Assembly: GCA_903887375.1 (NCBI GenBank)
Contig: CAISPN010000021.1
Location: forward strand, 1-64,000
Source of the DNA: an uncultured cyanobacterium
Lineage (GTDB): Bacteria; Cyanobacteriota; Cyanobacteriia; Cyanobacteriales; Microcystaceae
Length of the DNA: 64,000 bases
Reading direction: 5' to 3'
Shown here: in pieces, positions 60,582-63,284 of the stretch
Layout: each line of letters starts with the position of its first letter
Position numbering within the stretch: position 1 is the stretch's first letter
Notes under the pieces: model-generated
What the model was told of the DNA's origin: nothing
The model's input: the letters and a program-made list of their open reading frames with translations, nothing else
Databases searched by the model: none
Program-made: the position numbers and the translations under genes

Positions 60582-60716
60582 ATGAAATATCAAATAAGAA
60601 TGTATGTAGGTGGAACTGTATTTTATGAAGAAGTAATAGCCACAAATCCAGAGGATGCTAAACGAGTTGCTCGTAATCCAAATGCAAAAATACTAGGATT
60701 TACCGTCTTACTTTAA
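60582..60716 (+). CDS. 44-residue conserved-looking small protein
   Basis: A frame too short for most gene callers: it begins MKYQIRMYVGG, continues EEVIATNPEDAKRVARNPNA, and ends FTVLL before TAA. The YQIRMYVGGT strand, an NPEDAK helix cap and a final strand give a beta-alpha-beta pattern, and I recall similar short cyanobacterial proteins of unknown function. It ends 10 bases before the exonuclease-NTPase gene on the same strand. No strong ribosome-binding site is visible, which lowers confidence. Confidence 0.6.
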   Translation: MKYQIRMYVGGTVFYEEVIATNPEDAKRVARNPNAKILGFTVLL

Positions 60717-60726
60717 GCAATGCTCC

Positions 60727-63115
60727 ATGGAATTTGTCGTTATTGATATTGAGGGGCAACCAGAACTAAGCGAAATAGCTATTATAGATTGCCAAGGAAG
60801 GCTTATTTATGAGGCTTTATCTAGTGATAATTCTAATAATTCTGTAAATTTACCAAATCGCAAAAGTCTTAAAACTATTTTGATCGAATTTAAGGAGATT
60901 GTTAAAAGAAAAACAATAATATCTCATAATGTCAATCATGATATAGAAATACTTAAATGCAGTTTTCATAAAGTTGGATTAAACTTCCCAACTATTGATA
61001 CTTTTTGTACATTGCTAGAAGCAAAAAAAAATTGGCCAAACTTAGAAAGCCATTCACTGGAATATCTAAGCAAACATTTGAATTTACGTGTCAATGAAAG
61101 TTATTTTGTACGTGATTTAGCGCACTCTGCTAGATATGATGCCAAATTTACCTATAATCTATATTGCAAATTGATGATAGAACAGTTAAAAGGAAAACCC
61201 AATCCATTTGAAAGTAGCAGGGTTGATACACCATTTCAGAAACATCCAGATTATGCCCATATTCATCATCAAGAATTTCTTATTCTAGAATCTATTCTAA
61301 AAGACATTAAGCAAAATATAAACCGTCAAAGTCAAGGCGCAGTTGTTATTGGGGAGCCAGGCTCTGGGAAAACTCACTTGATGATGAGATTAGCCAATGT
61401 CAGACTATCTAGCAATAGATTACTATTTATTCGTCAGCCCAACAACCAACAATCTGTTCTTAATCATATATATAGTAGGATTTTAGAATCATTAGTTCAA
61501 AATGTTGGCTCATCAACACAATTAGATTATTTATTTATTAATAGCTATTGAAAAATTCTGGCTGAAAATAAAATAAATCAAAAAGATCAAGAAATTCTTC
61601 ATGCATTTGAAAACAACAATTTAGATGCTCTTGGTTCTGAAGGTACTGACCGTAAACGTAGTTATTGGCAACGTATAGAAAATACTATTAGTTCCTGGTG
61701 GATCAAATATTATTCGCTTGCTGGATTCGATTTATCTATATTAAAAGGAATTATAAAATATTGTAGCTATACTGAGTTTAATAGAAAGAATATTGCTACT
61801 CGTTGGCTTGCTGGACAGAATTTATCAGAAGATGAAGCGGAGACTATTGGATTACCAAATTGGGCAGAACAACTGAGTCTAGAAACTTTTTCATTAGAAG
61901 CTATATCAGTTTTAGCAAAATTATCAATTTTAGACGAGCCATTAATTATCGTATTTGATCAACTCGAAGCTCTAGGATTACCTGCTAATTATGAATTATT
62001 AATGAGCTTTGGTGATGCTATAAAAGAAATTTTTACCCATGTTCCCAATAGTTTAATTATTTTCAATATGTTTCCAGATCGATGGGAACAATTTAAATCC
62101 AGTTTTGATATTTCTTTGATTGGCCGAGTTTCTCAATATCAAATTCGGCTTAGCCAACCTACAGGAAAAGATCTCAACGAAATTCTAAAGATTAAGCTTA
62201 AATCAATTGATATTCCAATAGAACAAATTTTTTCAAAAGAGGATCTAGCAGATATTTTAGATCAAACCTCTATCAGAGCAATGATTAACAGAGCTGCTGA
62301 TTATTACAATTATAAAGTTCGACAATTTCCTGTATCGGTAATCAAAGACAAAGTTTATAAATTCAACGATGATGACAAATTAGAAGACCAGTTTCGTGAA
62401 TTGAAACAACAACAGAGTAAATTACTGGAAGGATTCAAAGAGCTTTTACAAATAATTCAAGATTCAAATTTAGTAAATTTGAGTGAGATTACACAAAAGT
62501 TTGAATCTACTACAATAACTACTAAAAAAACAGACGATAAGTATGTTATTGAATATTTGAAACAAAAAAAAGCTTATCTTGAAGATCAATATAATAATTT
62601 TTCTATTGTTTCTGATGCTGATGATATAGGTAAATTAAAAACTATAGCTGAAGCACTCAATCGTATTCAACCAATTAAGTTAACCCATTATCGACTAGGT
62701 AAACGAGTACTACCAGAGCACATTGTAGTTGAAACATATAAAAAAAATCATGTTTTAGCATTTCTTCAAATGCCTCCCAGTACTTCATCTTTTGCCAGTC
62801 GGTTGAATAATTTTAGTGAGATTATTAGCCTACATCCTAAAGATAGCTTTAGTTTGTTTAGAGATCAACGTTTACCTGAAATTAAAGGTAAAATTGCAAA
62901 AGAAAATATACAAAGGTTACAGAATACCGCTAATGCAAAATATGTCTTGTTTAAAACAAGACAGAATATTTCTAGAGCTTATATATCAATTAGTTCTTGA
63001 TATCTTGAATAAAGACATAGATGTTGATTTAGAGACAGCTTTAAAAGTGTTGACCACTTACAAGGAATGGTACCATTGGCTACTTGATATGTTTGGCTTG
63101 ACTAGTCCTCAATAA
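60727..63115 (+). pseudogene. DEDDh exonuclease-P-loop NTPase fusion with in-frame TGA and one frameshift
   Basis: One frame runs from ATG 60727 to 63000, broken by a single TGA at 61549-61551 (codon 275; NSY-stop-KILAEN, one base from TGG Trp). Near 62953-62956 an extra A in a run of four shifts the frame; skipping it continues KQDRIFLELI through to TAA at 63115, about 795 residues in all. Residues about 1-165 are a DnaQ/RNase T-like exonuclease with all DEDDh positions: VIDIEG, SHNVNHDIE and HSARYDAKFT. Residues about 190-530 are a P-loop NTPase with Walker A GEPGSGKTHL (about 209-218) and Walker B LIIVFDQLEAL (about 408-418). A coiled coil (KLEDQFRELKQQQSKLLEGF) and an unrecognised C-terminal domain follow. 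Base composition is visibly more AT-rich than the neighbours. Defence or DNA-processing roles are possible but unproven. Confidence 0.8.
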
Positions 63116-63187: not shown

Positions 63188-63284
63188 CTATAAAATATCT
63201 AAATCTTCTTCATACTGCTCTACAAGTGTTCCCAAGACATCCAAGTAATCTTGTTCATAGTTAGGTGGAGGAAATTGGTCTCAT
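63188..63284 (-). pseudogene. possible relic of a HigA-type antitoxin gene
   Basis: On the minus strand, ATGAGACCAATT (M-R-P-I) runs out of frame after 12 codons, while another frame reads NYEQDYLDVLGTLVEQYEED before TAG at 63188-63190. Together these resemble the first 45 or so residues of cyanobacterial HigA-like antitoxins (R-P-I ... D-x-L-D-x-L-x-T-L-V-E-x-Y-E-E) with an internal deletion and no helix-turn-helix domain. Too short and too broken to be a gene. The match is from memory and weak. Confidence 0.3.

Follow-up and report, generated by a model that had tools for sequence, protein, structure and literature searches.

ATPases of the ORC/Cdc6 clade are a mainstay of conflict systems, in some of which they are combined with active or inactive restriction endonuclease (REase) domains, and some of these operons also encode a 3′–5′ exonuclease fused to HerA/FtsK (PMC10853773). 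The ATPases of BREX fall within the same clade (PMC12839542). DEDDh exonucleases are also found fused to helicases, as in DinG, for which the accessible portions of the two sources consulted describe a function in repair (PMC12345164, PMC12525004). A survey of conflict systems makes no mention of exonucleases (PMC7159879). Here we describe a broken gene in a 64-kb window of cyanobacterial DNA (the whole stretch analysed) whose intact relatives join a predicted DEDDh exonuclease to an ORC/Cdc6-like ATPase. Judged by sequence, the family resembles known systems in parts and falls within none of the definitions that were tested (BREX, MADS, Avs and the PADLOC models).

The family shares with the Orc/CDC6–iREase–HerA/FtsK systems and the CR-effector-like ATPase–REase proteins the pairing of an ORC/Cdc6-like ATPase and a domain bearing a weak resemblance to a dead REase. 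Like the Orc/CDC6–iREase systems, it is mobile and has a putative nuclease effector, and some of those operons contain a 3′–5′ exonuclease domain (PMC10853773). In contrast to these systems, it consists of a single protein with an N-terminal DEDDh exonuclease and has no HerA/FtsK partner; it also lacks a recognized C-terminal winged helix, and its likeness to REases is weak (best E = 7 × 10−3). Its ATPase gives weak profile matches to Mad8 of MADS (best 4 × 10−7, in 56 of 60 relatives) and to BrxC of BREX (2 of 60), but this similarity covers only part of the ATPase and, unlike BrxC/BrxD and Mad8, the family carries its own exonuclease. Around the 80 family loci there is no BREX or MADS gene set. 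The exonuclease domain and its catalytic residues are those of the DnaQ/RNase T superfamily (PF00929), as in PolC and DinG, although here they are fused to an AAA+ ATPase instead of a polymerase or an XPD-type helicase, and scores stay far from the curated full-length cut-offs.

The layout also recalls Avs and other antiviral STAND NTPases, in which an N-terminal nuclease is followed by a central STAND/ORC-related NTPase and a C-terminal domain. The family differs from Avs in having no repeat sensor domain (the structure model shows no repeats) and in a predicted exonuclease, not an endonuclease, as effector, and the Avs2 profile matches weakly (9 × 10−5, in 13 of 60 members). Many cyanobacteria have a homologous ATPase region in P-loop ATPases of the Sll1717 family (NCBIfam NF047389) and in related AAA_16 proteins of 600–700 amino acids, but no exonuclease was detected in these proteins and identity is about 20–31% over the ATPase only. 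Such exonuclease-less AAA_16/KAP/BrxC_BrxD-like ATPases of 600–700 amino acids (L014–L030) occur several to a genome, sometimes close together (G069 C58, G074 C72 and G094 C35). Neither PADLOC nor NCBIfam has a model that covers the protein, and no report of the exonuclease–AAA+ layout was found in the literature searched, which included few subscription papers and is thus weak evidence of novelty. The preliminary description of this DNA had likewise named no system with this layout, and none emerged from the literature and family libraries searched.

On the forward strand of the window, positions 60,727–63,000 form one protein-like frame, the sole interruption of which is a TGA at 61,549–61,551; re-analysis of the reading frames bore out this part of the preliminary description. 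The 5′ fragment (60,727–61,551; 274 amino acids) contains the complete DEDDh exonuclease domain (residues 1–154), the linker NPFxSSRVDTPFQ and the Walker A motif of an AAA+ ATPase (GEPGSGKTH, 61,351–61,377). The Walker B motif (FDQLE, 61,954–61,968) lies 3′ of the stop and 5′ of the first downstream in-frame start at 62,002, from which a mechanically listed 3′ fragment ORF extends to 63,000. A C-terminal domain that begins near residue 599 (62,521–63,115, delimited by alignment and structure models) spans a frameshift in an A-rich stretch at 62,949–62,960. The last 50 or so codons (62,961–63,115) continue in another frame; their product matches the C terminus of intact relatives, and they end where the intact sister copy ends (WLxxMFGxTxPQ).

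Sequence searches with the read-through frame recovered uninterrupted full-length homologues, and the interrupted frames therefore belong to one gene and are not a chance succession. The best match, of 797 amino acids and 73% identity (E = 0), belongs to a sister genome of the same genus (G002), so the joined protein proposed in the preliminary description does have intact counterparts. Family members are about 780–850 amino acids long and occur in Nostocales, other cyanobacteria and Thiotrichales (Thiomargarita, relatives of Beggiatoa, and Thioploca), as well as in a single Desulfobulbaceae genome and a single Campylobacterales genome. Homologues that begin independently near 62,002, which had been named as an observation that would count against a single gene, were looked for; relatives run straight through this point, which rules out a separate conserved protein and leaves the ORF as a fragment. 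Two further family copies are interrupted or split (G125 C48, 60,420–62,734; L084, 2,986–5,405), which suggests that loss of the gene is recurrent. Copies without the exonuclease domain also belong to the family (L089, L090, L092, L094, L097–L102, L105, L107 and L108). They start near the NPFSxSRVDTPFQ motif, co-occur with full-length copies in some Beggiatoa/Thioploca-type genomes and, according to the tree, have at least two origins, one among Thiotrichaceae and another among Xenococcaceae.

The TGA had been thought to occupy a position at which TGG (Trp) would fit. Across the 60 aligned relatives this column (codon 275) is variable, with S, A, R, V, I, Y, H, T, C, D or F, and Trp in none of them; the intact sister has Arg. 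A variable column that never contains Trp leads us to reject a Trp codon or recoding at this site, and we read the TGA, from the alignment, as a nonsense codon. Programmed recoding, in which readthrough of the TGA and frameshifting together would yield the full protein, could explain why the sequence of both parts is still conserved. We find it scarcely credible, as no relative inspected has either the stop or the shift, Trp is never found in the TGA column, the shift site is merely a short run of A, and 95% of the window is coding under translation table 11; the preliminary suggestion of a gene in need of recoding is abandoned on these grounds. For the second lesion, the preliminary description had proposed a single inserted A. 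The out-of-frame continuation to 63,115 holds, but in all relatives inspected the spacing from VLF to KQDRI is one residue longer than a single inserted base could account for, and we therefore replace the insertion with a net loss of two bases at the A-rich stretch.

Because the TGA falls between the two Walker motifs, and the start at 62,002 follows Walker B, neither fragment can make the ATPase. GxxGxGKTH, FDQLE and the sensor/arginine residues R468 and R518 are invariant in the 60 relatives and are divided by the TGA in the window; we presume that the window protein is dead. The exonuclease domain and its DEDDh residues all precede the stop, which raises the possibility that the 274-residue fragment has been retained as a stand-alone exonuclease. 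This seems very improbable, given that none of the 80 loci encodes an exonuclease-only relative, whereas the exonuclease-less form exists. Moreover, the part after the stop has 34 nonsynonymous changes in the window copy and 26 in the sister, no clear excess, which argues against long-standing selection on the 5′ part alone.

Little decay is visible elsewhere in the gene. At a threshold of 90%, 172 columns are conserved; the window copy departs from 7 of them and the sister from 2, and 22 of the 61 sequences depart from more of these columns than the window copy does. Changes unique to one sequence, counted only at sites at which all other compared sequences agree, number 36 synonymous and 50 nonsynonymous in the window copy and 38 and 47 in the sister. 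With its motifs intact and unique substitutions like those of an intact gene, the window copy is most probably a very recent pseudogene formed by ordinary gene decay, as one of the initial readings had it, and the pattern fits a loss of function too recent to have left much trace in the sequence. The same substitution pattern would be seen if the gene were functional in the organism and both lesions were sequencing or assembly errors: the genome is a draft of 124 contigs, the frameshift sits in an A-rich stretch, and sequencing error would give the same picture of 7 departures in 172 conserved columns. We consider such errors unlikely, because they would have to place two different types of lesion in a single gene of a 64-kb window that has no interruption in its remaining genes; the high coding density and the lack of any other obvious broken gene also disfavour a generally poor assembly. 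The departures from conserved columns are slightly above those of the sister, and the end branch of the window copy in the tree is longer (0.23, compared with 0.14), in keeping with recent pseudogenization.

To describe the intact protein, we modelled the sister sequence with AlphaFold2 from the 60-sequence alignment (mean pLDDT of 86). Residues 1–154 form a DEDDh exonuclease with a fold that matches PolC and RNase T. RNase_T (PF00929) matches the 5′ fragment above its cut-off (37.5 bits against a gathering score of 24; E = 4.5 × 10−9) and 48 of the 60 relatives, which include exonuclease-less copies, at E ≤ 0.01. The catalytic residues D7, E9, D72, H133 and D138 (60,745–61,140) are all kept in the window copy and the sister, as alignment and residue checks show, and are invariant in a 12-sequence alignment; the N-terminal domain is thus a predicted DEDDh 3′–5′ exonuclease. 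Residues from about 180 to 535 form an AAA+ ATPase that resembles Cdc6, ORC and TnsC (TM(target) of 0.48 to 1fnn and 0.50 to 7rzy, with a probability of 1.00 but E only about 4 × 10−3 to 9 × 10−3), and nearly all family members have AAA_16/nSTAND matches in Pfam. Pfam, motif residues and fold matches therefore agree on the fusion of an exonuclease with a P-loop NTPase that was first proposed from the open reading frames. No winged helix of the type found at the C terminus of ORC/Cdc6 was recognized in the model, in which the AAA+ lid is followed by helices, a low-confidence stretch and a coiled coil (residues 549–579).

From about residue 600 the model has an alpha/beta domain, which reaches a pLDDT of 95 when modelled alone. 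Its fold matches are weak (Mus81–Eme1, EcoT38I and XisH; E = 0.007–0.024, TM(query) of about 0.3); weak matches also include Shedu, Avs4 and Cap4, and several of the matches are restriction-endonuclease-like. A sequence comparison with solved structures gave no match up to E = 10. In the members inspected, the third core strand has no acidic-x-Lys, and hence no catalytic D…ExK of the PD-(D/E)XK type. Nearly invariant positions are D631-x-D-D-x-G-K, R693, N696, N698 and R713-D-x-R. From the models, we infer that this domain may have an inactive nuclease fold and bind nucleic acid.

The family is patchily distributed, in 29 of the 291 genomes of the class (about a tenth), and has plasmid copies in Tolypothrix, Calothrix, Nostoc and Synechococcus. 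In the tree, the window copy and its sister nest in a Nostocales clade, and other members of their own family of organisms carry a separate lineage of the gene. GC content is below that of the flanks in 63 of 73 loci, and is 31% for the window gene compared with 40% for the window. The Nostocales-nested position and the low GC content point to horizontal acquisition of the gene. In the sister genome the copy lies elsewhere, between a gene that reads as NAD-kinase-like and a gene of the leucine carboxyl methyltransferase family. Both the sister and G001 have other genes at the murE side of the window locus, which indicates that the site differs, although no empty site was demonstrated. A phage or prophage origin was rejected: viral contigs contain no relative, and phage records give just short exonuclease matches.

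Clustering of the neighbours of the 80 loci revealed no conserved operon partner. Annotated neighbours on plasmids include DUF87 and NurA (we take the DUF87 protein to be HerA-like), DUF262 and HNH proteins, TIR and macro proteins, NERD and NACHT, as well as genes for methyltransferases, helicases and GIY-YIG proteins. Among a wider set of loci, neighbours match GajB, DrmC, PD-T4-6, RTasHel (DRT) and GmrSD_N, and many relatives also adjoin plain metabolic genes. PADLOC models number 93 in 98 near proteins and 30 in 79 farther proteins of the same loci, counts that include redundant models; this control is only suggestive of linkage to defence genes.

Two small features flank the window gene. 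Between it and trpS, a short coding-like relic on the reverse strand (63,188–63,280; DQFPPPNYEQDYLDVLGTLVEQYEEDLDIL, then a stop) has only a weak Pfam match (AbiJ_NTD5, E = 0.067); it reminds us of HigA-type antitoxins and is possibly a second decayed mobile gene. Directly upstream, a small intact ORF on the forward strand (60,582–60,716; 44 amino acids, MKYQIRMYVGGTVFYEE...) has no counterpart beside the relatives and no match in Pfam, and was rejected as a part of the locus.

The preliminary description had also proposed a role in surveillance or defence. Plasmid carriage, neighbours, patchy spread and low GC content favour such a role, which is unproved and has to accommodate the metabolic neighbours. 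We think that the role of the family is probably of the defence type and, with similar confidence, that the window gene encoded a counter-invader nuclease of a mobile, single-gene kind and was inactivated very recently. A family role in DNA repair, recombination or plasmid upkeep appears rather unlikely. It would have a parallel in the DEDDh–helicase fusions of the DinG type, which act in repair in the parts of the literature consulted (PMC12345164, PMC12525004), and would suit the ParA/ParB genes near the copies on Synechococcus plasmids and the metabolic genes beside many relatives. However, a gene for repair or upkeep sits poorly with presence in so few genomes of the class, with horizontal movement and GC-poor sequence, with the lack of a conserved partner and with plasmid neighbours enriched in counter-invader genes.

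For the defence role, we tentatively put forward an ATP-gated exonuclease, a specific model that we hold to be possible and less secure than the role itself. In intact members, the ORC/Cdc6–TnsC-like AAA+ core would bind or encircle foreign or aberrant nucleic acid, perhaps helped by the C-terminal nuclease-fold domain and the coiled coil, and would oligomerize on ATP. The assembly could then position or license the N-terminal DEDDh 3′–5′ exonuclease, so that the nucleic acid is degraded. More speculatively, and in our estimation doubtfully, the family might be an undescribed one-protein immune system. A catalytically dead nuclease-fold domain that binds DNA would guide an ORC/Cdc6-type ring onto invading DNA, and loading would switch on the built-in DEDDh exonuclease; in giant sulfur bacteria, the exonuclease-less paralogues would serve as partners or regulators.

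The window copy is a broken gene, and its significance lies in the family that it exposes: a conserved, mobile exonuclease–AAA+ protein with no function assigned in the libraries searched. We regard the intact family as a moderately interesting candidate for an uncharacterized immune nuclease. If it is one, it would be a further system made of a single gene, with an exonuclease of the proofreading type under the control of an ATPase of the replication-initiator type.
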